Positions 3,228 through 55,309 of a stretch of 64,000 nt of DNA are shown here, in pieces (within the stretch, counting starts at the first letter, position 1; the number at the start of each line of letters is the position of its first letter). Where the stretch lies: positions 118,847 to 182,846 of the IMG/VR virus record IMGVR_UViG_3300008117_000025; one strand, written 5' to 3'. This stretch comes from a virus. The position numbers and the translations under genes were made by a program. The notes beneath the pieces were generated by a model that did no database searches, was not told where the DNA came from, and saw only the letters and a list, made by a program, of their open reading frames with translations.

Positions 3228-4847
3228 TTAGAGGGTATTTAAACCAGCAACATATACTTTACCATAGTAGTCAGGACGGATCATCTTCTTAGCGTAACGA
3301 GTCATCAAACCTTTTCTAGGAGTGAAGGTTGTTGGATCGTAAAGAAGTGGAGTCATGATCAATGGAACGTATGGAGCGAATACAGCACCGCACTCAAGGA
3401 ACTGAGCACCTTTGTAACCCATGAGGATTACGTTCTCAGTCATGTATGGGTTCTTGTATACTTTGTAGCGGCTGTTCAAAGAACCAACTTTCTGAATACC
3501 GAAGTTGAATTCCATTTTCTCGCCGTCACCATCAGAAGCAAATCCAGGAATAGATTCAAGGATAGTAGCTACAGAAGGAGAAGTAATAAGGAAATTAGCA
3601 CCACCACGTAAAGTTAACTGATGGATTGTGTTGGAAACTTTCTGTAATTTAGTACCTAAAGTTTGGAACCAACCGCCTTGAGTGTTGTAGTAGCCAAGAT
3701 CAGTAGCAGCACCAGTAGAATCTAAAGACTTGTTATTAACAGCAGTCCAACGATCAACAGTATAAGCATTCTGGATTAACATGTCAAGGATTTCGAGGTC
3801 GATTTCCATAGAGATGTACTGAGAAAGGATACCAGTTAATTCAGCTTCAGCATCAATGCTATGATAAGCATTCAAATCCTGAGCGAATTCTGGAGTCCAT
3901 TGTGCTTTTAACTTACGAGTTTTAGCAACGATAGCTTCAGATTTCAACTGAACGTCAATAGAAGGGATGTCGATAGTAGCAGGAGCATTTGTAGCACCAA
4001 CTTTGGTTTTTCCGTCTTCAAAATCACCACGGCTGTCAGGAGTGTTTTGGATGTCATAATACAATGTTACGCCACCAACTAAAACACCAGCAGCAATGTT
4101 GGTAACTTTAGAAGTAGGAACAATAAAGGAAGCGGTAGTGTTAGCAGCATTGATAGTAGTGAAAGCCTGTAATACATCAGTAACACCAAGGGTAGAACCA
4201 GAAGCGATTACGAAAGCACGAACACCATTTACATCAATGTTTGAAGGAAGAGCAACGTTAACTTTGTAGTAGCTAGTCACAGAAGCTGAGTAGTTAGAAT
4301 CAAAGTTAAAGTCAGACCAACCGATAGAGCTAGTAACAGCAGCTACACCAGAAGCGGTGTATTGGTTAATAGAGTAACCAAAGCGACCAGCACCATACAA
4401 AGAAGCGGTGTTAGCGAAATCAGTTACATTGTTAGTTGGAGCAGCGCTATAGAGAGAATCACCAACACGAAAAGGTTTAATACCGTTAGCATATTTGAAA
4501 TCAAGATAGAATACAAGACCAGAAGGTAAGTTCATTGGTTGTACACTAACGAATTCTTTAGCTGCGATTTCACCAAATACGCGGCGAACTAAAGGCAAAG
4601 CAACACCAGCCCAGTTCTCACTGTTGTATCCACCACCAGACATGCTGTTAGTTCCACCAGTTACGTTAGCTTCGGTTACTAATTGTTTTGCTTGGTTTTC
4701 AAGCAACATTGCCATTGTGTTTTTGTCAGTAGTAGAGCTAATACCTTCTAAAAGGCCAGATTTAGCCCACTTGCTTGACAACTTTTTTGCATCATCCATC
4801 ACCACTTTATATTGGTTAGATGATTCGAGGAGTTGTTGTACGTTCAT
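3228..4847 (-). CDS. Major capsid protein, T4 gp23-like
   Basis: A 539-residue T4 gp23-type capsid protein (HK97 fold). The propeptide ends at QLVTEANVTGG (E59/A60), closely paralleling the T4 gp23 cleavage site FLTE/AEIGG. The core contains the family block around KLKAQWTPEFAQDLNAYHS and DAEAELTGILSQ. The C-terminus, with PRKGLMTRYAKKMI and GKVYVAGL, also matches gp23. It is the last gene before a strong double-hairpin terminator and sits directly downstream of the scaffold gene. The leader is A-rich with no Shine-Dalgarno sequence. Confidence 0.95.
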   Translation of the reverse strand: MNVQQLLESSNQYKVVMDDAKKLSSKWAKSGLLEGISSTTDKNTMAMLLENQAKQLVTEANVTGGTNSMSGGGYNSENWAGVALPLVRRVFGEIAAKEFVSVQPMNLPSGLVFYLDFKYANGIKPFRVGDSLYSAAPTNNVTDFANTASLYGAGRFGYSINQYTASGVAAVTSSIGWSDFNFDSNYSASVTSYYKVNVALPSNIDVNGVRAFVIASGSTLGVTDVLQAFTTINAANTTASFIVPTSKVTNIAAGVLVGGVTLYYDIQNTPDSRGDFEDGKTKVGATNAPATIDIPSIDVQLKSEAIVAKTRKLKAQWTPEFAQDLNAYHSIDAEAELTGILSQYISMEIDLEILDMLIQNAYTVDRWTAVNNKSLDSTGAATDLGYYNTQGGWFQTLGTKLQKVSNTIHQLTLRGGANFLITSPSVATILESIPGFASDGDGEKMEFNFGIQKVGSLNSRYKVYKNPYMTENVILMGYKGAQFLECGAVFAPYVPLIMTPLLYDPTTFTPRKGLMTRYAKKMIRPDYYGKVYVAGLNTL

Positions 4848-6147: not shown

Positions 6148-6753
6148 TTAAACAGCTGCTATCTTTTGTGCTAGTGCTATTACCTCAGATGTTTTAAAAG
6201 CGGATAAACCACCTTCTAAGCCTTTAACTATGGCAGTATGTGCATCTACTGCTCCCATTCCACTTGATATAGCAGCAGCTGCTAATATAGCAGCATATAC
6301 ACCATGAGCAGCATCATATAATTGTGATGATTTATCTTGTACTTCTTGTCCTTTAAATTTTTTAGGAAAAGATTTTTGTAAAATAACACCGATGGCATCT
6401 ACGTATGCTTCTTCTAATTGATGACCCCAATGTTTAAGAGCATTACCTACTGCTGTTCCTTGTTTTTTATCTTTTTGAAAAATAGAAGCAATACCATTTA
6501 CAGCTTTACCAGCTAAATTTATTAATCCAGGAGCACCAGCAATTAGGCCTAAAGCTAAACCAGCGGCTTCATCAATTTCACCATCATTTGGAGATAATTG
6601 AACTGAGTTTGCTCCTGATTTAAGCATATTTAGTGCTAATTTTAGTCCTTGTTCAGCATCTTTATCAGCTACAGGATCAACTTGTTCGGCTTCAGTAATA
6701 ATACCGGCTAATTGTTGCCAACGTTTTGCTTCTTGTATTAACATAGTGGACAT
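6148..6753 (-). CDS. Putative prohead core / internal head protein
   Basis: A 201-residue protein beginning MSTMLIQEAKRWQQLAGI followed by ITEAE, a tag-like N-terminus with an I-T-E site. The remainder contains two hydrophobic, Gly/Ala-rich stretches (about 65-90 and 150-185) that could be membrane-active helices. It overlaps the protease gene by 16 bases and precedes the scaffold gene, the T4 neighbourhood of core proteins gp67/gp68. The family is not recognised; packaging into the head is inferred from the tag and the position. Confidence 0.75.
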   Translation of the reverse strand: MSTMLIQEAKRWQQLAGIITEAEQVDPVADKDAEQGLKLALNMLKSGANSVQLSPNDGEIDEAAGLALGLIAGAPGLINLAGKAVNGIASIFQKDKKQGTAVGNALKHWGHQLEEAYVDAIGVILQKSFPKKFKGQEVQDKSSQLYDAAHGVYAAILAAAAISSGMGAVDAHTAIVKGLEGGLSAFKTSEVIALAQKIAAV

Positions 6754-7355
6754 ACTCCTGTTGCGTTACAAATAATTTCAGTTATTAAGCTATTTACTTT
6801 GCTATAATCTTTTATAGAACCAAATTTCTTTGACTCAGCTAATTGCATATATGCTTGTGGAGTTGAAGGTACTGATACTAGATCCCAACACAATAGTTCG
6901 AAATCATCTTGTACTTCAACTGTTTCGCCTAATTGCTTAACAGAGCCCATACCACGAGATGAAATACCAAGTGGAATACCAGACATTACTAATGCTTTAG
7001 CGATATTGCCTGAAGGTGTAGGTAATAATTGTAATTTACCCATTAAATCATTTCCTTTCCACCATACCTCAGTAATAACGTGGGAAGTATTTGCAAGGTT
7101 TACAACAGATGCTTCAGGATGATCGAGTTCTCCTAAGGCAGTACGTGTTTTTACTGGTCCATCTGTGTATTTTTTTACTTCTCTTTCAAGAATTTCGCGA
7201 GGATATACACGACCATTGCCATTCTTTTGCTCAGCTTCTTGTAATTTACCAACAAGGGTAACAAGGTTTTTACCTTCACCTAATTGTTTATTTTCAACAA
7301 TGGTTAGGTTTGCTGTTTGGAATGGAGTGTGATCTATTAATAATGATTTATTCAT
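6738..7355 (-). CDS. Prohead protease, T4 gp21-like
   Basis: A 205-residue serine protease of the T4 gp21 type. Visible family motifs are NGNGRVYPREIL (about 45-56), GELDHPE with the probable catalytic His79, and GISSRGMGS with the probable catalytic Ser132/133. T4 gp21 cleaves core, capsid and internal proteins after L/I-x-E, the site pattern found in many proteins of this window. Its own C-terminus contains LITE, a possible self-processing site. The gene lies between core proteins and the scaffold, as in T4. Confidence 0.92.
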   Translation of the reverse strand: MNKSLLIDHTPFQTANLTIVENKQLGEGKNLVTLVGKLQEAEQKNGNGRVYPREILEREVKKYTDGPVKTRTALGELDHPEASVVNLANTSHVITEVWWKGNDLMGKLQLLPTPSGNIAKALVMSGIPLGISSRGMGSVKQLGETVEVQDDFELLCWDLVSVPSTPQAYMQLAESKKFGSIKDYSKVNSLITEIICNATGVCPLC

Positions 7356-23661: not shown

Positions 23662-26292
23662 TTATTTCTTTTTTTCGTTTATGTGTTTGCGTAGTAATTC
23701 TTTAAATTCTGTTAAGTGACTTGGATTGCGGTCAAAATATTCATTTACAATATAACGATGAATTTCTGCCAAATTACGTTGTTGTAAGGCTTGTAGTAAA
23801 TTAGCAGGTGAATCTAACCTTACTAGGGTATTCTGTATAATAAGGAAATGATTATTTCCAGGTTGGATTACAACAGATAATACATTTGTATTGTTATTTA
23901 ATCGAATATTATATATAGCACTTTGTCCACTTTCATATACTTGGTTAACCCTACCTCTTCCACCTATTAGATTTTGGCGGCGAGCAACACCTCTATTACC
24001 TACTGTAATACCTGGTAACCAGTTTCTTGGCCAGTTTCTTATTATGAAGTTAGCAGTAGTGAGAGTAGCAGGGATTCCAGCATTTTGAAAAATATCTCCT
24101 ATTCCAACTTCTCCTTCTGCAGGTGCAGCGGCTTGTTGAGGACGAGGAGCATTTGGTTGTCCTGCTGGTCTACCTCTTCTTGCAATACCACCTACTTGAG
24201 CAGCTATTTGACCAGCTGCTGGTTGTCCTTGTCCTAGTAATTGTCTTGCTAATGCGCTAGGTACATTTGCTTTAACTAATTTACCTGATTGATCAGATAC
24301 TTTAAAGCTATTTCTTGGATCTGCTGTGTTGATAAGTAAAGCAGTATTACCATTCATAGCTGGTTTGTATCTGTTAGTATCTGATACTGGTGGGTTGCTA
24401 GATATAAAGTCTTTTTTAGAGTTACCAATCATACTAAATCCTTGATTTCCTAATAGTGTAGTTAAATCATTATCATTGAATGTTTGATTTGTTGCTCTTA
24501 AATAAGCAAAATAGGATCTCCATTCATTAGCATCTAGACTAGTTGAGGTATTTCTGCTTCTCCAATTATTACCACTATAATCAGCAATTGATCTTTGTTG
24601 GCGTGGATTAATAGTAGCAGGCATTAATAAAAATGCTGATCTTTCACCAGAAGCCGTTAATACTACTGATGGGATATCCCCATATTGTACTATTCTTTGG
24701 TTATAAGGAATAGCATTAATAATCGATGTTAAAGCATCTTTATCTATAGTTGCAGGAATATTTCGTTCATCATCTCTAAATAAATTTAATGCATTTTGCT
24801 GGAATGATTCGTTATCTTTAGCATCAGTAAATGCTTGTTGTACTTCTTCATTATCAAAGGGAACTGATGTTATTTTTCCGTCTTCACCTACTTTATATGA
24901 AGAGAATGAGTTAGAATCTAATACAATTTCTCCACCTTCTACTGGTTTAACTATTAAGGCAGAATTTTCATCCTTTTTAGCATTGTCTAATATTTTTGTA
25001 ATTAAACTTCTATCAATAATTTCATCTTGAGCTAATTTCAATAGATTTCTTATAGGGATTTTATCTAGTTCTGGGTAGTCAATAAGATATTTTGATGTAC
25101 GTTTGTTTAATTTGATGTTGGGGAAATCATCTTCGGCTTGGTATAATCCTATTTTAATATCATCTCCCAATTCTAATTTAACTATAGTATCACCTTCTTT
25201 ATTAATATATACTCTTTCATCAGACTCTAAATACCATTTATTTAATTGAGTTATAAGTTTTTTAACATCAAATGGAATCTTTTCTTGCGAAAGGTATTTT
25301 AAAGGAATTTCATTTTGGAGATTTGCTGTTATTGATCTTCTAATTTGATTTGGGAACTTATCTAAATTTTTCAATAAAGTAACAGAATCAATAACACCAG
25401 GGGATTCAGCTATAAATTTAGCTAATTCAGGATATTTAGGTAAATATTTTTCTACAAATTCTTCATCACTAATATCAGAAAACAATTCATTACTTCTATT
25501 ATTTTTTCTAACTACTAAGTATTGTTGTTTTGCTGAAAAGGGGAATTTAGTCCATTCTCTATAACCTACAGATTGATTTCTGTATTGTTGGGTCATTTTT
25601 TCAGTTGAAGAAATAGGGATATACTTTAAAATAGATTTAATATTTGGTATATCTCTTAACCAAGGAACTTCACTTAACAACCCATCAAAATCCATTGGAT
25701 TTGATTCGTGAGGAGAATTTTTTCTATTTGTATAAACGTATCTTTCATTTTCATTAGTTGTTTTAGGATCTCTAACTTGAATAGCAACAAAACTTAATTT
25801 ATCGCCATCTGAAAGATTATTATTTTTTGCTAGATAAAATGTTGGATAAGATCTGTATGCACTATAACGATAGCTAGGGAATGAGGATCTAGTTATACAC
25901 CATTTTTCTCCATCACCGTATCTAATACAGTTATCTTGTTTACTACCATTATATATAACAATAGTATTATCGTCATTATGATATACAACATCTGGGGTGA
26001 TATCTAGTTCTTCAACACCTTCTTCACCTTTAGTTGCAGTAACTAATCTAATGAATTTAGCTATAGACCATTTATTTAAATCTCTTTGATCGCTAGGTAA
26101 TTTTTCCTTAATACGATCAAAAGTATTGATATATGCTCTTAATTGGTCATCTGTGATTTGAATATTAAGATCATCAGCTTCTTCTTGGAATCTTTTAATA
26201 AAACCTTTTATAGCGTTTTCGCCATAAGCTTCATTAAGCTCATTTTTCCAATTGTGTACAACGTGTAATATAAATCTATCTATATTTCTCAT
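23662..26292 (-). CDS. Large internal-protein candidate with Cys-motif domain
   Basis: An 876-residue protein. The N-terminus contains ELNEAYG (about 18-24), a tag-like L-N-E site. Residues about 28-230 form a domain with CIRYGDGEKWCIT (122-134) that also occurs twice in the 1358-residue protein; shared flanks are an N-terminal helical F..R/F..IK segment and a later PNIKSILKYIPI. The central 350 residues are unassigned. About 660-720 is Ala/Pro/Gln-rich, and the C-terminal 150 residues are a separate domain ending in Lys. A virion-packaged effector is my best guess; no enzymatic motif is certain. Confidence 0.75.
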   Translation of the reverse strand: MRNIDRFILHVVHNWKNELNEAYGENAIKGFIKRFQEEADDLNIQITDDQLRAYINTFDRIKEKLPSDQRDLNKWSIAKFIRLVTATKGEEGVEELDITPDVVYHNDDNTIVIYNGSKQDNCIRYGDGEKWCITRSSFPSYRYSAYRSYPTFYLAKNNNLSDGDKLSFVAIQVRDPKTTNENERYVYTNRKNSPHESNPMDFDGLLSEVPWLRDIPNIKSILKYIPISSTEKMTQQYRNQSVGYREWTKFPFSAKQQYLVVRKNNRSNELFSDISDEEFVEKYLPKYPELAKFIAESPGVIDSVTLLKNLDKFPNQIRRSITANLQNEIPLKYLSQEKIPFDVKKLITQLNKWYLESDERVYINKEGDTIVKLELGDDIKIGLYQAEDDFPNIKLNKRTSKYLIDYPELDKIPIRNLLKLAQDEIIDRSLITKILDNAKKDENSALIVKPVEGGEIVLDSNSFSSYKVGEDGKITSVPFDNEEVQQAFTDAKDNESFQQNALNLFRDDERNIPATIDKDALTSIINAIPYNQRIVQYGDIPSVVLTASGERSAFLLMPATINPRQQRSIADYSGNNWRSRNTSTSLDANEWRSYFAYLRATNQTFNDNDLTTLLGNQGFSMIGNSKKDFISSNPPVSDTNRYKPAMNGNTALLINTADPRNSFKVSDQSGKLVKANVPSALARQLLGQGQPAAGQIAAQVGGIARRGRPAGQPNAPRPQQAAAPAEGEVGIGDIFQNAGIPATLTTANFIIRNWPRNWLPGITVGNRGVARRQNLIGGRGRVNQVYESGQSAIYNIRLNNNTNVLSVVIQPGNNHFLIIQNTLVRLDSPANLLQALQQRNLAEIHRYIVNEYFDRNPSHLTEFKELLRKHINEKKK

Positions 26293-26690
26293 TACTTTGT
26301 TTTACCCCATTTTTTACCCTTACCAGGATCTGAACATTGTGAAGGTGTTGGGCGGCAGGAAGGGTATTTTGCTCGCGTTTCACCTTTTTTACGGCCACAA
26401 GGTTTACATTTTTTCTTACCGTCTACCTCGCGACATGTATTACAATCAACCCAACCTCCTGTTTTACCAGGTGCACCTTTGCGTTTAAACCAAGTGCGAA
26501 GGGTTTCTTTTTTTTTCTCGTCTAATTGATCAATAAGTTCTTCTTTTAATCCTTTCCAAATATTACCTTTACGGCAACGTACAATAGCACCTGACTTATA
26601 GGCAGATGGCTTATCATATTTGCGATCGGCAATTCGTTTGCAACGATCTTCGTTAAGAATTTCTTTCGCTATGTCGGTTAATTTGATCAC
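26292..26690 (-). CDS. MIKL-tagged Cys-rich basic protein, DUF5872-like
   Basis: 132 residues: tag MIKLTDIAKEILNED, a DRCKRIADRKYDKPSAYKSG block, and a C-terminal part with eight Cys in a Lys/Gly-rich context (DCNTCREVDGKKKCKPCG, YPSCRP). The block and Cys pattern are familiar from marine T4-like phages (DUF5872-like) and probably bind zinc. Mature protein after L-N-E would be strongly basic. Function unknown. Confidence 0.8.
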   Translation of the reverse strand: MIKLTDIAKEILNEDRCKRIADRKYDKPSAYKSGAIVRCRKGNIWKGLKEELIDQLDEKKKETLRTWFKRKGAPGKTGGWVDCNTCREVDGKKKCKPCGRKKGETRAKYPSCRPTPSQCSDPGKGKKWGKTK

Positions 26691-26693
26691 TTT

Positions 26694-27164
26694 TTATATA
26701 TTAAAAAAATATAATAATTGATTTTTCCCATTAATTTTGACCATCTCTAAATTATCTGTTGTTCCTGTATATCCTGCATTCATCATTGTATTGATGTTGT
26801 TCATGTTTCCTTTATATGCATCCTGTACACCTCTTATAAAATAGGATTCAACAAAATTATCTTGAAAATCTTCATGTTTAGGATGCCAATCTATAGCATC
26901 TTTATATAATTCATGAAGTATTTTAGGATTATTATCTAAAAAAACTATATATTCTACATCATTAGTTAATACCTTGTATGGTTTATTATCCCAATTCCAC
27001 TCAGAAATCCATTCATCTTCATTTTCATCTTCATCATACCCTATTAGATGTCCTAAATCTTGAACAATTAATTGTTTTAATATAGAAGATACCTCTGAAT
27101 TTTGTTGAAGTTGTCCTGTGGGGGATATTTCAAGTTCTTTTAATATGTCTAATAATTTAATCAT
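26694..27164 (-). CDS. MIKL-tagged hypothetical protein
   Basis: Start at the ATG 27164 (MIKLLDILKELEIS), one base from the preceding stop; the longer frame to 27221 overlaps its neighbour. About 156 residues, acidic, with aromatic strands. No known domain. The tag is nearly the consensus form of the set, with L-K-E as possible cut site. Confidence 0.75.
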   Translation of the reverse strand: MIKLLDILKELEISPTGQLQQNSEVSSILKQLIVQDLGHLIGYDEDENEDEWISEWNWDNKPYKVLTNDVEYIVFLDNNPKILHELYKDAIDWHPKHEDFQDNFVESYFIRGVQDAYKGNMNNINTMMNAGYTGTTDNLEMVKINGKNQLLYFFNI

Positions 27165-27165
27165 A

Positions 27166-27543
27166 TTACCATTTTCTGCAAGACCAATATCTTGCTTTTG
27201 TACGTGGTCCTGGGTTGGCACAGTTATGTCTTGCTCTAAAGGCAGCGCGGCGTTTAGGATTATTTTTCTTAATGTTCATTCCCTTAGCACCAAAGTTTAC
27301 TTTTACAACTTTACCTGTTTTAGGGTTTTTAACATATACCTTAAACTTTTTAGAATCACCACGCATTGGTTTACCTAATGGTACAGTACGACCTTGATAC
27401 TTAGCTTCTAACATGCAATCGCAATCAGCTTCGTTAAGTTCGTTTTGATATTCTTCCATGAATTGAACAAATTCTAAAATGTCTTGTTCATTTTCAACGT
27501 CGTACTCTTCTACTTCGTCTATTATTTCTAATAACTTAATCAT
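27166..27543 (-). CDS. MIKL-tagged conserved basic phage protein
   Basis: 125 residues: tag MIKLLEIIDEVEE, an acidic stretch with LNEAD (second possible cut), then a conserved basic domain with VPLGKPMRGDSKKFKVYV, KVNFGAKGM and FRARHNCANPGPRTKARYW. I recognise this domain as widespread in marine phages; function unknown, the Cys/His/Arg pattern suggests nucleic-acid or metal binding. Cleavage after L-N-E would separate the acidic part from the basic domain. Confidence 0.8.
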   Translation of the reverse strand: MIKLLEIIDEVEEYDVENEQDILEFVQFMEEYQNELNEADCDCMLEAKYQGRTVPLGKPMRGDSKKFKVYVKNPKTGKVVKVNFGAKGMNIKKNNPKRRAAFRARHNCANPGPRTKARYWSCRKW

Positions 27544-27647
27544 TTGAATTGATTTAATATCTTGTTATTTTGATCGATTCTTTTTTTATGTTTAAGACCG
27601 TTTTTTCTTGATTTCATTGGTCTTTTTTTAGGTGCTGCGTTTGCCAT
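27540..27647 (-). CDS. Small Lys/Arg-rich protein (35 aa)
   Basis: The minus-strand ATG at 27647 opens a 35-codon frame, MANAAPKKRPMKSRKNGLKH and on to NQFK, whose stop overlaps the next ATG as ATGA. It is very basic (more than 35% Lys/Arg/His). This is the second such peptide in the window (the other is at 9246-9380). The tight coupling argues it is real; a DNA-binding role is a guess. Confidence 0.6.
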   Translation of the reverse strand: MANAAPKKRPMKSRKNGLKHKKRIDQNNKILNQFK

Positions 27648-27652
27648 AGTTT

Positions 27653-27886
27653 TTATTTTGAATGCCACCAATTACAACAATATTCGTCGGCAGCGACAGG
27701 TATTTTAGCATTACCATCACGCCACTGTAACCAATATTTGTTATTGCATAAATTGCCCTTTTCAACCCAATATTCACAGTTACCACACATTGAACCACCT
27801 TTAGTTACTTTCATACCGGGTTTATGATCTGAAGGGTATTCAATTTTACCTTCTTGGAGTTTAAGTAATTCAAGTAGGCTATGCAT
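27653..27886 (-). CDS. Tagged Cys-rich small protein, HiPIP-like pattern
   Basis: 77 residues: tag MHSLLELLKLQEGK with L-Q-E, then CGNCEYW, a single LCNN, and ADEYCCNWW. Cys spacing and the PVAADEYC ending resemble small Cys-rich marine phage proteins sometimes likened to high-potential iron-sulfur proteins. Iron-sulfur or zinc binding is inferred from the Cys content only. Confidence 0.7.
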   Translation of the reverse strand: MHSLLELLKLQEGKIEYPSDHKPGMKVTKGGSMCGNCEYWVEKGNLCNNKYWLQWRDGNAKIPVAADEYCCNWWHSK

Positions 27887-28813: not shown

Positions 28814-31800
28814 TTATTGATATATCTCGTTGTTTTGTTTGCCAAAATCTCTTAATAATATTCCTGCTTTAGCGTTTGCTTCGTTTTCAATTTCACTACC
28901 TGTTTTTCCACTTTCATAACTAATTCGTCCGTCTAAATTTTGTTTATGATGAACTAATTCATGTGCTAATGTTCTTAATATATCAGCCATGTTTCTATTC
29001 TTCACATAAACCCATATTTTATTATCATTCGGATCAAAATAACCAAAACTGCGTCTGTCTTTTACTTGATTAGTATCGTAGGAGAGGGTTAAGCTACGAG
29101 GAGGATTCTGGATTGCCAAATTTTTGCATGCATATTTTATAAATTCTCCAATAGTACCTGTTTCACTTTCGTCTAAACGTTGTAATTTAGATTTTAAACC
29201 TTCATTCATTAATTTTATTTTAGCTAATTCTTTTCTATATTCGTCTACTAATTGTTTAACTTCTTCCATATATTCTTTTAAAAGGCCTAATTCTTCAGAA
29301 TTTATATTCCAATCATTAAGAACATCTTTTAATGTAATTCCAGGAGGAGCAAGACTCATTAAAATATTATCAGCAAATTTTTTATATTCATCTTTTATAT
29401 CGCTTCCTGCTTTTACAATTCGGTTTTGTGATATATAAGAGGTTGCATATCTGTCCTCTTTTTTTACATATTTAAGTGTAGCTATAATTTTGTAAGATTT
29501 TATTTTACCACTTAAAATATCATCAATTTTATTATCAGCAGTTTTAATATATCTAAAAACATATTGTTTATCCCGAAATCCTTCTTGATAATTTTTACCA
29601 TTCTTATAATCGTAACTATCATTAAGATTACCTAATAAACTATTGTATTTTTTATCTAATTCATATTCTGCTTTTTCTTTAGGATCTACTTCTACATCTT
29701 TAAATATATTTTTTAAACCTTTAAGTCTAGGATACTTATCTTCTATATTCTTAAAGAAAGAATAGAAATCTTCCCCCGGATTATCAGCTGTTGTTACAGT
29801 GTAATGGTCTATCCCATTATCTGAATACATATTATAGTTAGCATCAACGAATTCCCCATTTGGGTCAGGATGGACAAATATTACTAATAGATGTGTTATA
29901 TCTACAAAATTTCCATTTTTATCTTGTTCAGATGATTTTGTATCATCAAATACAAAGTATGGTGTGCCACTTTCTTCATATCTATAATCATAATATAAAT
30001 TATCATCACCACGAGCTGAAATACAAAATGAATAGCCATTGCCATATTTAATACAGGCATTTTTAGTTTTACCTACATATATTCTTAATCCGTTTTGGTT
30101 ATAAACTAGATTAGCATCTTTACTAGGTTCACCATCATTTATTTTACCTGCCTTAATACGCTTTGGTTGATTAGCATCAACTGTAGTTTCTAAATCTTTC
30201 CAGTTATATTTAGTAATATCTTTTTCAGTTACTCTAGGACTATCCTTAATTTGACTAAAGCGATTAATATATGATTGAATAATATTTACTCCTAAATTAG
30301 GTTTTTCTTGTTGAAATTTAGCAGTTAAATCATTAACTAATTTGTTAGAATATTCATTGATAGAAGTTTCATTTATTAATTTTAACTTAAGTATTTCTCT
30401 ATCATATTTGTTTGATATTTCAATATAGGTTGATAAAATTTCTTCATGTTCATCATCGAGGGGTACCAATTTATATTCTAACTTTGGTGTTAGGTTTAAT
30501 TTTTTTACATTATCAATCCAACCACTTATATTTTTTTCAAATTCTTTTTCATTTTTAGCAACTGCATAATTTTTTTGAATAGTCATATATGGATTTAGTT
30601 GTCCGTTTTTTTTATCATAAGCTAATAATCGGTAAAAATATAATTGTAGTTCTCCTTTTAATAATTTAGTTGCTGTAGATTTACCACTCTTAGTATCTTT
30701 ACCACTTATAATACTCAATGCTGGGTATTCATCAAGAAGATTATCTAGTTTTTTTTCTTTTTGTCGTTCAAGATTATATATTTTAACATCAATATCACTA
30801 TCCCCTATAGGTTTATATTGTAATATATTTTTTAATCCATTAAGTTGGGGATATACTTCTGCCATTTCTTCAAAAGTACTAAAAAGCTCTTCACCAGCAT
30901 TGTTTGCTTCTGTAACAGAAAATGCTTCTCCTTCCTCAACCAATATTACCAATAAATGAGTAGGATCTATAAAACCATTTTTACCTTTATCACTAGATCT
31001 ACTATCATCAAATACAAAATATATAGATGCTGGGCCTGACTCTTCATATGATCCTTCTTCTGATCCTACTCTGTATCGAGCATATAAATTTCTTGAACCA
31101 CGAGCTGAAATGCAGAAACTATATCCATTACCATACTTTATACAGGATTTTTTAGATCCACCTTCATATACCCTAATATTATTTTGATTATATAGTAACT
31201 CAGCGTTAGTAACATCTCCATCATTTAATTTACCTGCTTTAATACGTTTTGATTGTAGATTATCTTTTATTGTATCTTCTAAATCACTCCATGAATATTG
31301 AAAAATATCACGTTTATTTGCAGATAAATTATTTTTAATCTGATCAAAACGTTTAATATATTCTTTTACCTGTTCAGTCGATAGTTCAGGATTTTCTTGT
31401 GTGAATTTGTCTGTTAGTTGGCTAATAACCTTTTCAGAATATTCTTTTAATGGTTCAGCAGGTGGTTGTTCAGCAGGAGCCGGTTCTGGTTTGGGTTCTT
31501 CTTTAGATTCTTTACCCATTGCTAATAGGAAATCAGCTACTTCAACACCATCAGGTAAGAATTTTTTAATTTCTTCCTCATTACCATCGCGTATTGCTTT
31601 TCTAAGATCAGTAGCATTTAAACCACCAAAATTACCAGCATCGAATATTTTTGCGTTAGAATATTTACTTAAATTTTTATATCTATCTTCTTCACCTTTA
31701 CCATAAGCAGCATATACTGTTACCTCAGGATTATTTTCTACAAAATCATATACATCTTTAACAGGTGTAACAGCTGATACTCTTATTTCTACTTTATCAC

Positions 31801-32890
31801 CGTCTACTAATTGGTCTTTGTATAATTCCCAAGCAGCAACACTCTCATCAGGTGAAATACCATCATGTATTTTAGGTGAAACTAATACTACTACTTGATC
31901 TGCTTTATTAAGTAATTGTTTTACTACACTAAAGTGACCTTTATGTGGTGGTTTGAATTTGCCTGGAAATAGTGCTATTGTTGTTTCACTTTGTTCAAGT
32001 AGCAATGATGCAATGTATCTACCTAGGTTAGTTTCACTTAGCATTGAATTTACTTTATCTAATGATTTTTGTTTATTATCGCCTTTTGGCGTATTTACTT
32101 CACCACTTTTAATAGATACCATCGAGTTAAAAACGCCTTTAATGCGGTTTTTAGAGCGTGGATTTTGTACCTTAGATGATATATTATTTAACAGTTCCTC
32201 GAAGCTACCGTCTATTTTGTAGTTGGTAAATAGCTTTTTGATATTAGACCAATTGCTAGTTTTCCATACTTCGGTACGATCAGTTTCTTTAAAATTATCT
32301 AACGTTACGATACGTAATGTTAAACCGGCGCTTGATAAGTTAAATTCATATTCTTGATTTGCTTCTAGTACAGGTACATTTTTTATACCCATACGAGCAA
32401 ATATTGATTTAGGATCTTCCTCTAGACATATTACCTTAGCTAATCCTAATAATAGTCCTTGTATTTCAGCAGGATAATCTAAAAATTCTTTCTTGAATTC
32501 AGCTTCATCATCACTAACAGAAACAATATTATCTATTTGAACGTATTGATCTGGTTGGTCTTCTATAGGATATAGTATGGTAATAATTTCACCTGTGTTG
32601 AGGTATTTTTTACCTTTATATTTTTCACTTTTAAAGGGAATAATAACGTCGTCTGGTAGTGCTGATAGGAATTTAGCTAGCTCTACTTTAATATTTTTCT
32701 TGTCTGTTGCTTCTAAATTAACAATTAAGTCAATATCACCAAAATCTTCTTTAGCGCTTGTATTATATGAACCTGAAATTTTAGCACTTTTAAAAGCAGG
32801 AAATTTCTTTAATATCCTGTTGATATAATTATCTGTTGTTTTAGCAACAGAAGCTCTAGTAATCCTATTTCCACCGGCTGATCCTGACAT
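28814..32890 (-). CDS. Multidomain NTase/NMNAT-like/metallopeptidase putative polyprotein
   Basis: 1358 residues. Domains in order: nucleotidyltransferase (GSYNTS 40-45; D52 and D54 in GDIDL); NMN/pantetheine adenylyltransferase-like (about 303-455; HKGH 316-319 and NATDLRKAI); two copies of an unknown domain (about 484-700 and 850-1070), each with CIKYGNGYSFCIS; and a C-terminal zincin (about 1245-1358) with HELVHH 1310-1315 and downstream Glu residues. Tripeptides LLE (297-299), LKE (481-483), INE (839-841 and 844-846) and MNE (1228-1230) lie at domain borders, so prohead protease could cut it into pieces. Its start overlaps the preceding stop by one base. Function inferred: packaged host-modifying enzymes. 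Confidence 0.85.
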   Translation of the reverse strand: MSGSAGGNRITRASVAKTTDNYINRILKKFPAFKSAKISGSYNTSAKEDFGDIDLIVNLEATDKKNIKVELAKFLSALPDDVIIPFKSEKYKGKKYLNTGEIITILYPIEDQPDQYVQIDNIVSVSDDEAEFKKEFLDYPAEIQGLLLGLAKVICLEEDPKSIFARMGIKNVPVLEANQEYEFNLSSAGLTLRIVTLDNFKETDRTEVWKTSNWSNIKKLFTNYKIDGSFEELLNNISSKVQNPRSKNRIKGVFNSMVSIKSGEVNTPKGDNKQKSLDKVNSMLSETNLGRYIASLLLEQSETTIALFPGKFKPPHKGHFSVVKQLLNKADQVVVLVSPKIHDGISPDESVAAWELYKDQLVDGDKVEIRVSAVTPVKDVYDFVENNPEVTVYAAYGKGEEDRYKNLSKYSNAKIFDAGNFGGLNATDLRKAIRDGNEEEIKKFLPDGVEVADFLLAMGKESKEEPKPEPAPAEQPPAEPLKEYSEKVISQLTDKFTQENPELSTEQVKEYIKRFDQIKNNLSANKRDIFQYSWSDLEDTIKDNLQSKRIKAGKLNDGDVTNAELLYNQNNIRVYEGGSKKSCIKYGNGYSFCISARGSRNLYARYRVGSEEGSYEESGPASIYFVFDDSRSSDKGKNGFIDPTHLLVILVEEGEAFSVTEANNAGEELFSTFEEMAEVYPQLNGLKNILQYKPIGDSDIDVKIYNLERQKEKKLDNLLDEYPALSIISGKDTKSGKSTATKLLKGELQLYFYRLLAYDKKNGQLNPYMTIQKNYAVAKNEKEFEKNISGWIDNVKKLNLTPKLEYKLVPLDDEHEEILSTYIEISNKYDREILKLKLINETSINEYSNKLVNDLTAKFQQEKPNLGVNIIQSYINRFSQIKDSPRVTEKDITKYNWKDLETTVDANQPKRIKAGKINDGEPSKDANLVYNQNGLRIYVGKTKNACIKYGNGYSFCISARGDDNLYYDYRYEESGTPYFVFDDTKSSEQDKNGNFVDITHLLVIFVHPDPNGEFVDANYNMYSDNGIDHYTVTTADNPGEDFYSFFKNIEDKYPRLKGLKNIFKDVEVDPKEKAEYELDKKYNSLLGNLNDSYDYKNGKNYQEGFRDKQYVFRYIKTADNKIDDILSGKIKSYKIIATLKYVKKEDRYATSYISQNRIVKAGSDIKDEYKKFADNILMSLAPPGITLKDVLNDWNINSEELGLLKEYMEEVKQLVDEYRKELAKIKLMNEGLKSKLQRLDESETGTIGEFIKYACKNLAIQNPPRSLTLSYDTNQVKDRRSFGYFDPNDNKIWVYVKNRNMADILRTLAHELVHHKQNLDGRISYESGKTGSEIENEANAKAGILLRDFGKQNNEIYQ

Positions 32891-33861
32891 TATGCTTTTT
32901 CTTTTTGGTAAGGAATTAATTTAGAATTATCAGGTAAGAATTTACCTTTTAATCCTAGTCTATCTTGGTTATCAATCCAATATTTTTGTAAATTATCAGG
33001 TATATCTGCTCTAGTTGAGTCAAGTATTTTAAGATATCTATCCATAATAGAATTATATTCTTCTTTGGATATATTTTTTCTTATATAATCTTCTAATTTG
33101 AAATAATCATCAAGAATATCTTGAGTTAAATTAAAACCGTATAATTTATTTAATAGAGCGATTGCTTCTTTAGGATTAGATGCTTCCTGCTTACCTGTTT
33201 CCTTATCTAAAACACCAGTAGTATGACCAAATGTTTTACCTTTATTAGCAAATAAAGCTAACATTAATTGTGTACGATGTAATCCTTTAACATTGCCCTC
33301 ATATGATTGAGAATAATAACTAAAACGTAACCATTCAGGATTACCTACATTAATATCGGTTTGAACTGCTTTACCTACTTTTTCACCGTCAGGTCCGTAT
33401 TGAGGTATAGCACAAAATATAGAGCCGGCACCTGATGCTTTAAGATCAACTTCAACGTCAGGTAAAGCATCGTTAATTTTATCTCCAATCAATACAATCA
33501 TAGCACGTAATTGGAGTTTTTCAGGAGTAGCGGTTCTAGCTTTTTTAGTAAATTGAGCTAAAAGTTCATTATATTTGTTTTCATCTACACCCCAGCCTTT
33601 AAAGTCAGGTTTTCCACCAGGAAATATATTTTGAATATCATATGATAAATCAATATCACCTGACACGGCTTTTTTACCAGCAGATCCTAATTTTTCAAAT
33701 GCTTTAAACGTTGATGCCTTTGCAGGAAATATTTTAGATAATTGATCTACAAATTTTTCAATTGTAGGTTCAATATTGTCTTTTTCAATTGAATCGGTAG
33801 TACCAAATACATTACCACCTTCTAACAATATTTGTTTAGCTATTTTTAATAATTGGATCAT
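32890..33861 (-). CDS. MIQL-tagged nucleotidyltransferase-like protein
   Basis: 323 residues. Tag MIQLLKIAKQILLEGG with L-L-E/G. The domain has LGSAGKKAVSGDIDLSYD (GS at 59-60, D69 and D71), the metal-binding motif of pol-beta-type nucleotidyltransferases; a third acidic residue may be in VEVDLKA. The C-terminal half is helical. Target unknown: such enzymes can adenylylate proteins, tRNA or small molecules. It is cotranscribed and coupled with the 1358-residue protein, itself starting with a nucleotidyltransferase, and expressed from a promoter with a 5' hairpin. Confidence 0.8.
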   Translation of the reverse strand: MIQLLKIAKQILLEGGNVFGTTDSIEKDNIEPTIEKFVDQLSKIFPAKASTFKAFEKLGSAGKKAVSGDIDLSYDIQNIFPGGKPDFKGWGVDENKYNELLAQFTKKARTATPEKLQLRAMIVLIGDKINDALPDVEVDLKASGAGSIFCAIPQYGPDGEKVGKAVQTDINVGNPEWLRFSYYSQSYEGNVKGLHRTQLMLALFANKGKTFGHTTGVLDKETGKQEASNPKEAIALLNKLYGFNLTQDILDDYFKLEDYIRKNISKEEYNSIMDRYLKILDSTRADIPDNLQKYWIDNQDRLGLKGKFLPDNSKLIPYQKEKA

Positions 33862-39056: not shown

Positions 39057-39488
39057 CTACAACAAGTCTTTAGTAAAGAATTTACCTAGTATATTATCAT
39101 TGTATGATCTGTCCTTTCCAATCAGAACTTCTTCTTTACACTGGAAATGCATTTCGTAATATGTTAATGCTTTTTTAGTTTTGCATTGTATTAGGATCCA
39201 ACGATCAAAATTTTCCTCGCCATATTCCTTAATATCAGTAAGTAATTGTTTATTAGACCCCCAATATTTTTGCCAATCGCTTTCAGTACGAATTATTTCG
39301 TGAGTTGGTTTGCGACCTGGGCCAGTTTGTTCAGCAAGTTGTTTTTTAGTGAGTTTGTGTTTTTTATTATTCCAAAACACTTTTTTACCAATATAAAATT
39401 TACCTGTTTTTAAATTGGTAATTTTATAAACAAAACCATAATATTTTTCGGGATTAGGTATATCCCAACTTTTCCACTTGTGTATCAT
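39057..39488 (-). CDS. GIY-YIG-like phage nuclease
   Basis: 143 residues. The start GFVYKITNLKTGKFYIGKK gives the paired G-[FI]-V-Y / F-Y-I-G strands of the GIY-YIG fold, followed by ESDWQKYWGSN and LTYYEMHFQ, matching phage putative homing endonucleases (Seg-like). The conserved Arg, Glu and Tyr are plausible catalytic residues. It overlaps the next gene by 4 bases, so it is integrated in an operon rather than an obvious free-standing invader. Confidence 0.82.
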   Translation of the reverse strand: MIHKWKSWDIPNPEKYYGFVYKITNLKTGKFYIGKKVFWNNKKHKLTKKQLAEQTGPGRKPTHEIIRTESDWQKYWGSNKQLLTDIKEYGEENFDRWILIQCKTKKALTYYEMHFQCKEEVLIGKDRSYNDNILGKFFTKDLL

Positions 39489-39859
39489 ATTTCAACTATC
39501 CAAATAGATGGATCTATTCCTTTATTTATTAATCCTGACAGTCTGGTATTTCCAGCTAACAGATCATAGTCTTGATCATTAAATTTTACTGCTATAGGTA
39601 TTTCTACTTTATTTTGATAAAATGATTTATTAAATCTATCTTTTTTAGGTTCTTCTAATTTGTTAAAATTTAAATCTATATTACCTAATACATCTTTAAT
39701 TTTAGAATATTTTATAATGTATCCTTGATTAGCTATTTTTTTCCATTCCTCCTTTCCCATTTTTTTAAGTTCTGGATATCTGATAGCTTCTTCCCACTCA
39801 ATGTCGAAATTGGGTTTAGTGTATTTTATTTCTTTTAAAAGATTTAATAGCTTAATCAT
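39485..39859 (-). CDS. MIKL-tagged ParB-like domain protein
   Basis: 124 residues: tag MIKLLNLLKEIK, a helical middle, and a C-terminal VKFNDQDYDLLAGNTRLSGL, where LxxGNTRL is the nucleotide-binding motif of ParB/sulfiredoxin-like domains. In phages this fold occurs in nucleases and in regulators. With the tag, it may be packaged. One-base coupling to the tail gene upstream. Confidence 0.75.
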   Translation of the reverse strand: MIKLLNLLKEIKYTKPNFDIEWEEAIRYPELKKMGKEEWKKIANQGYIIKYSKIKDVLGNIDLNFNKLEEPKKDRFNKSFYQNKVEIPIAVKFNDQDYDLLAGNTRLSGLINKGIDPSIWIVEI

Positions 39860-54460: not shown

Positions 54461-55291
54461 TTATAATTTATTAAACATTTGTTGTAATTTAGCAGGTGCT
54501 ACTTTTGCATCTCTTGATTTTTGATCTACATTTATAAGTACGGTTTTATTTGGATCTATATTCTTTGCTTTAATATAATAATTGCCATCTCCTGTAATAC
54601 CTAATTTTTTAATAAAATCATCAATATACTTTTGATCAGTTGTATGTTGAGATAATAATTCTTCCAATCCACTTTTTGTTAAAATAGTGTTTGGATCTCC
54701 AACATTTTCGGAAGGTTTAGAGGTAGTAGCTTCATACTTTTCAAGATACTGCTTTAAAACCATTGTTAGATCCCTTGGATCTCTTTCTTTTCTTCCTTTA
54801 ATATTTGAAAATAATATAGTAAGCGGAGCATGTAAAAGTACATGTTTTACGTTAGGAACATATTTTAAAATATCATCATTTACACTATCAAAAACAACTT
54901 TTTTCCAAGGTCCTTTTTTATACTCCTGAGCCATATACCATGCTCTTGCATCCTTTGTATCTTCAATATACGTGTCTTCATATGGATTTTCAGGAACATT
55001 TTCACCTGCTTTACGATATAAACCTGAGACTATTCCCGGTTCTTCATTTTCTATTGACCATTTTCTAATATTGGGGTGATCATGTTTTAATCTTCTTTTT
55101 TCTTCTTCTTTTCCTTTACCAAACATATCACTATCTATTTGAACCCATTGGTTAGGGTTAGTTGCTTTATAAAAAGGAACAGCTTTTAATATTTGAGCAG
55201 CCATTGATTTACCTGCTGATGATGTTCCATCAATTAATATAGCAATTTTATTTTCTGCTATTTCTTTTAATATATCAATCAACTTAAGCAT
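54461..55291 (-). CDS. Tagged P-loop kinase (chloramphenicol-phosphotransferase-like)
   Basis: Start at the ATG 55291 (MLKLIDILKEIAEN), directly behind the promoter box 55295-55304. About 276 residues. Walker A LIDGTSSAGKSMAAQ matches CPT-like small-molecule kinases (GTSSAGKS), and VQIDSDMF supplies the usual Asp after strand 2. SNIKGRKERDPRDLT looks like the lid with Arg/Lys. The tag with L-K-E or I-A-E sites suggests a packaged kinase acting on host at entry; the substrate cannot be inferred. Confidence 0.8.
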   Translation of the reverse strand: MLKLIDILKEIAENKIAILIDGTSSAGKSMAAQILKAVPFYKATNPNQWVQIDSDMFGKGKEEEKRRLKHDHPNIRKWSIENEEPGIVSGLYRKAGENVPENPYEDTYIEDTKDARAWYMAQEYKKGPWKKVVFDSVNDDILKYVPNVKHVLLHAPLTILFSNIKGRKERDPRDLTMVLKQYLEKYEATTSKPSENVGDPNTILTKSGLEELLSQHTTDQKYIDDFIKKLGITGDGNYYIKAKNIDPNKTVLINVDQKSRDAKVAPAKLQQMFNKL

Positions 55292-55294
55292 ATC

Positions 55295-55304
55295 AATAAA
55301 TATA
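55295..55304 (-). promoter_or_regulatory. Promoter box for tagged kinase
   Basis: TATATTTATT ends 3 bases before the ATG at 55291. Confidence 0.5.
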
Positions 55305-55309
55305 AACAA

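Follow-up and report, generated by a model that had tools for sequence, protein, structure and literature searches.

A candidate cargo polyprotein of a T4-like phage with leader-like elements and prohead-protease motifs between its domains

Introduction

Phages are known to send proteins into the host along with their genomes, and two described classes come closest to the case considered here. The polyvalent proteins are large chains that combine 2–15 disparate domains and are predicted to be injected with DNA; a zincin peptidase is their commonest domain, ART, ParB and Pol-beta domains are also found in them, and an analogy with polyproteins has been drawn (Iyer et al., 2017, PMC5512222). In T4, head proteins carry a cleaved targeting sequence, and the published motif of the gp21 prohead protease is L/I-x-E, with L or I at P3 and E at P1 (PMC9026906). 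Further, in bacteriophage P1, the first 30 residues of DarB are enough to have it packaged (PMC9024508). Here, we analyse a 64,000-nucleotide window (positions 118,847 to 182,846 of the IMG/VR virus record IMGVR_UViG_3300008117_000025, of 182,846 bp) and in it an open reading frame (ORF) for a multi-enzyme chain of 1358 aa and 154.8 kDa (28814..32890 (-); coordinates are those of the window, and (-) and (+) denote the strand). Comparison with its relatives leads us to think that this ORF probably encodes a polyvalent protein carried as cargo by a T4-like phage, a polyprotein that its prohead protease would process at internalised leader/cleavage elements. A preliminary description of the chain had held that it has no described equivalent, which is too strong in view of the multidomain injected polyvalent proteins and of T4 head proteins whose targeting sequence is cleaved; for prohead-protease cutting between the enzymes of one chain, we found no account in the open-access papers searched.

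Results

The ORF of 1358 residues is present as first described, with an identical copy in a second contig record (L003; L numbers are our labels), and all five domains ascribed to it can be recognised. Residues 1-283 (32042..32890 (-)) form a Pol-beta-like nucleotidyltransferase (NTase; GS...DFGDIDL), detected as Pfam Polbeta / NTP_transf_2 in relatives, with Polbeta reaching only E = 0.012 in the window chain and 5e-4 in a relative. Residues 300-465 (31496..31993 (-); HKGH and ATDLR) match Pfam CTP_transf_like above the cut-off and combine the HxGH motif with the nucleotidylyltransferase fold of NMNAT/PPAT enzymes; the best PDB matches of the modelled domain are NaMN/NMN and phosphopantetheine adenylyltransferases, and its best PHROG is ‘cytidyltransferase’. 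Two copies of an uncharacterised domain, X, follow (residues 484-838, 30377..31441 (-); residues 847-1227, 29210..30352 (-)). They are 38% identical to each other, and the second was modelled by AlphaFold2 with a mean predicted local distance difference test (pLDDT) score of 84.7. X had no PDB match by sequence and no convincing one by fold, the fold search returning only uncharacterised viral proteins at low template modelling scores. The C-terminal residues 1242-1358 (28817..29167 (-)) constitute a zincin-like HExxH domain (HELVH...ENEAN), whose motif is conserved in the alignment and which has a weak PHROG metallo-protease match (E = 4e-4). A PADLOC search yielded nothing convincing.

The four [LIM]xE motifs that had been singled out as cleavage sites between these domains are all there: LLE 297-299, LKE 481-483, INE 844-846 and MNE 1228-1230, from which products would start at residues 300, 484, 847 and 1231. 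Three more, overlooked at first, lie at the same joints: LSE 284-286, INE 839-841 and LDE 1239-1241, the last being a better-conserved peptidase boundary than MNE 1228-1230. The NTase/NMNAT joint thus opens with LSE (32033..32041 (-)), which is LNE, LSE or LTE in all fused relatives and LAE in Flavobacterium phage Immuto, and continues with an internalised leader, TNLGRYIASLLLE (residues 287-299; 31994..32032 (-)), ending in the candidate site LLE↓Q (↓ marks the candidate cut). The next linker, residues 466-483 (31442..31495 (-)), is Pro/Glu-rich and ends in LKE↓YS, and double candidate sites occur both between the X copies (residues 839-846, INE↓TSINE↓YS; 30353..30376 (-)) and before the peptidase (residues 1228-1241, MNE↓GLKSKLQRLDE↓SE; 29168..29209 (-)). 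With 14 [LIM]xE in the chain, the motif alone is weak evidence; it is the relatives that make the case strong.

In relatives that have no NTase, the N-terminal leader, MNLGQYIAQQLLE↓, is equal to the NTase/NMNAT joint of the window chain, NLGRYIASLLLE↓. The genes of these relatives start at the joint point, and the NMNAT domain comes directly after both elements; the window joint reads LSE↓TNLGRYIASLLLE↓, and this internal element is homologous to the N-terminal MNLGQYIAQQLLE. Both sites are kept in 10 of 11 distinct NTase/NMNAT joints, and two-site joints are frequent. Similarly, X stands behind an N-terminal leader (e.g. MRPIDKFILHVVHNLFPLNE↓) in a separate syntenic gene at >25 loci, an uncultured phage of 595 kb has a protein with X that starts with ..TRTINE↓, and Synechococcus phage B23 has the peptidase as a stand-alone gene behind MNYKQFLRE↓. 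The window itself encodes a separate 876-aa protein (23662..26292 (-)) in which the leader MRNIDRFILHVVHNWKNELNE↓ directly precedes X; it had no match in the phage collection. Its leader ends LNE↓AY, and a C-terminal HINE↓KKK may be a site at the other end.

Relatives were sought in uncultured phages, in a first scan and then in a second scan with the peptidase domain (80 loci), and domain starts were mapped by BLAST to the domains of the window chain. The first scan produced full chains of 601, 727, 965, 1125 and 1358 aa, with no, one or two copies of X and with or without a domain Y, and the second many further architectures; over about 80 loci, the chain is reshuffled, with X present zero, one or two times and the extra domain Y and the NTase each present or absent. 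An [LIM]xE lies at most 12 residues upstream of 45/47 internal domain starts as against 9.3% of other positions (85 non-redundant proteins), and in 38/39 mutually dissimilar junction contexts, N-terminal leaders included, as against 9.8% of background positions, statistics that overstate independence, with p-values not to be taken at face value, since the compared proteins are related and the window chain served to define the domain starts. We rejected chance as the origin of the joint motifs. The starts of X (E↓YS) and of the peptidase (E↓SE or E↓SQ) have unrelated linkers upstream whose common features are L/I at P3 and E at P1, and internal and leader sites share these too; beyond these two positions, joint and leader sites share little sequence.

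An AlphaFold2 model of a relative with one X (L004, 965 aa; mean pLDDT 75.8, predicted template modelling score 0.34), which has a shallow alignment and stands in for the window chain, bears on the expectation that the sites lie in exposed linkers. This held for three of the four: Glu 299, 469 and 833 fall in inter-domain segments with pLDDT <50 (287-301, 465-469 and 830-839), with the fourth, Glu 844, just past the last of them. The model is consistent with beads on flexible linkers.

The gp21-like protease postulated for this phage is encoded in the window at 6738..7355 (-) (Pfam Peptidase_S77, E = 9e-34; PHROG head maturation protease, 5e-54), with H79, H92, S132 and S133 invariant among 14 homologues, and is the proposed cutting enzyme. 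A T4-type portal, TerL and the Gp23 major capsid protein (3228..4847 (-)) are also encoded there. Gp23 has an N-terminal region with conserved LLE sites, and its pro-region ends at VTE↓A, the position of the T4-like LTE↓A / LSE↓A; the sites of S-SRM01 and B23 at this point are of the form LxE↓A. Each of the 13 phage records checked encodes both a prohead protease of the S77 family and a capsid protein of Gp23 type. Immuto, whose host is Flavobacterium sp. LMO8, is the closest cultured phage, with a gene order around the chain gene that largely matches that of the window; its 907-aa orthologue, immuto35A_182 (L013:20001-22724(+)), is annotated only as NMN adenylyltransferase. No isolated phage other than Immuto was found to have NTase and NMNAT domains of this type together, and no relative was found in bacterial genomes. 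As a separate observation, immuto35A_182 also contains the NTase, along with two regions resembling metallopeptidases, of which the second follows VMAE↓GRY.

Comparable elements extend beyond the chain gene. A relative of 2214 aa (L055:191-6835(+), also L100:4219-10860(+)), with the same downstream neighbour as the chain gene, has 17 joints of the form LxE↓IG(V/I)N or LxE↓ISD and hence 18 segments, almost all of them opening with LxE↓IG(V/I)N, and small genes in four further records (L105, L107, L111, L112) read MIKF..ILxE↓IG(V/I)N.P, e.g. MIKFSNILAE↓IGVNKP, with 1-3 modules each. In the window, candidate leaders were found on a second NTase-like protein of 323 aa (MIQLLKIAKQILLE↓GG; 32890..33861 (-)), two small ORFs (MIKLTDIAKEILNE↓, 26292..26690 (-); MIKLLNLLKE↓, 39485..39859 (-)) and a P-loop ATPase-like ORF (MLKLIDILKE↓, 54461..55309 (-)). 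MIKLL.DILKE-type candidate leaders on short ORFs (26292-27886, 39485-39859 and 54461-55309, all (-)) suggest a larger set of capsid cargo. Over the window as a whole, [LI]xE is modestly enriched at gene N-termini (2.3-fold per position, p 1e-5), occurring there in 28/57 genes versus 34% of interior windows. We lean, by a narrow measure, towards a more general proposal, in which a number of T4-like phages would share a cargo system built on a portable cassette of capsid-targeting leader and LxE site. Cargo genes would be fused, separated and rearranged along this cassette, with single-module leader genes in arrays at one end of a continuum and chains of as many as 18 segments at the other; in every case, S77 cleavage in the prohead would release individual proteins for injection.

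Some side observations concern individual proteins of this set. The Immuto orthologue of the 323-aa NTase-like protein is without the MIQLLKIAKQILLE leader. One relative (L058:27-2630(+)) matches ART-PolyVal (PF18760) at E = 5.7e-7 and 30.8 bits, against a cut-off of 31.2, a match that the window chain itself does not have, and the C-terminal regions of two others (L036 and L049) contain ADP-ribosyltransferase RGTS/SWS-like motifs, judged by eye only.

Discussion

By analogy with T4 (PMC9026906), the chain would join the prohead core as a single polypeptide, and its internal leader elements would do the work of the capsid-targeting sequence of T4. Cleavage of the linkers by the S77 prohead protease, on the C-terminal side of the Glu in L/I/M-x-E, would then yield an NTase of ~33 kDa, an NMNAT-fold enzyme of ~20 kDa, X proteins of ~42 and ~45 kDa and a zincin-like protein of ~13 kDa, and the separated proteins would be injected into the next host together with the DNA. 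Internal translation initiation at Met283, considered in place of cleavage, was set aside because this Met is absent in several relatives. What the individual enzymes would do in the host is likewise conditional: an injected NMNAT-fold enzyme could restore nicotinamide adenine dinucleotide (NAD+) against NAD-depleting defences, while phosphopantetheine adenylyltransferases match the fold too. Phage NAD+ synthesis has been discussed as a counter-strategy (PMC9503650).

The idea of the preliminary description that a polyprotein is cut in the head is, on the comparative data, much the best fit to the domain breakpoints on LxE, the identity of joints with leaders, the S77 and Gp23 genes in 13/13 records and the modelled linkers. 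Several points nevertheless weigh against it, beyond the kinship of the compared proteins. The motif occurs inside folded domains as well (E158) and hence is not sufficient; a position-specific profile trained on the leaders of other genes did not separate the joint sites from other LxE; and virion or infection proteomics was found for no member. Moreover, the NTase domain is without a leader of its own: the very N-terminus of the chain, MSGSAGGNRITR, contains no T4-type leader, the leader-like element being internal at residues 287-299. Some peptidase-only genes (L082-L099) are also leaderless, indicating that packaging of the peptidase domain does not always follow the proposed route.

Of the other explanations, the one that survives best, though we consider it unlikely, is that leader-carrying genes recombined and fused at their leader DNA and that the internal LxE are remnants in a protein that acts or is packaged uncut. 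Single-module leader genes and fused chains do coexist in these phages, making fusion at leaders the likely route of origin, and the NTase/NMNAT joint is a whole leader. However, the linkers keep L/I at P3 and E at P1 where their remaining sequence diverges, the motif outlives the leader helix at joints (LAE in Immuto; LxE↓IGVN in the 2214-aa relative), and several linkers contain two sites, for which an inert scar has no need.

Still less probable is self-cutting by the C-terminal zincin domain, with LxE incidental, as proposed for polyvalent proteins (PMC5512222). An HExxH zincin-like domain is found at or near the C-terminus in most relatives, and there is the precedent proposed for DdrB of bacteriophage P1; against this, the LxE elements equal the leaders of proteins that stand alone and lack a peptidase domain, and they fit the published specificity of gp21, a homologue of which is present in each of the 13 records checked. 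Finally, that the chain is a prohead core or scaffold component, cut for removal in maturation like T4 gp22 with no delivery of enzymes, is very unlikely: the core proteins of T4 do undergo cutting at several L/IxE sites and are for the most part removed (PMC9026906), but the segments here are folded domains of enzyme type whose motifs (HKGH, HELVH, DFGDIDL) are intact, the domain content varies freely among relatives, and the chain gene is not adjacent to gp20-gp23.

If processing by the prohead protease does occur, some tailed phages make host-takeover or counter-defence enzymes by a strategy familiar from RNA viruses, as a prohead-processed polyprotein. Packaging in one chain would keep the cargo enzymes at a set ratio, and the resolution of large multidomain cargo would be explained without dependence on a peptidase of its own. 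The leader / LxE↓domain signature would offer a means of recognising capsid cargo, X and other uncharacterised domains among it, in genomes that consist mostly of function-less genes. Immuto represents a cultured phage group suited to a simple test, and the 2214-aa relative merits its own study.

With respect to known systems, the polyvalent proteins come nearest, and the architecture of the window protein conforms to theirs: like them, it joins at least two disparate activities in one chain with a zincin-like metallopeptidase domain. It differs from them in the prohead-protease motifs and internalised leaders at its joints and in having the Pol-beta NTase in a phage chain. With the T4 internal head proteins (IPI-III, Alt), it shares a short leader ending in L/I-x-E before the mature protein, an S77 protease and, as predicted here, the entry of cargo into the host; whereas T4 cargo has one protein per gene with terminal propeptides, the window chain has several folded domains with the motifs between them. 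The phages phiKZ, 201phi2-1 and SPN3US likewise have a gp21-related protease, many cut head proteins and several sites per propeptide, but their motif is S/A-x-E or A-x-E, and the reported cuts remove propeptides (N-terminal ones in SPN3US, the protease itself excepted). DarB and DdrB of bacteriophage P1 are comparable as large multidomain head proteins that serve as capsid cargo; in the passages of their description covered here (PMC9024508), no internal leader/cleavage elements are seen in them, and the protease context is another one.
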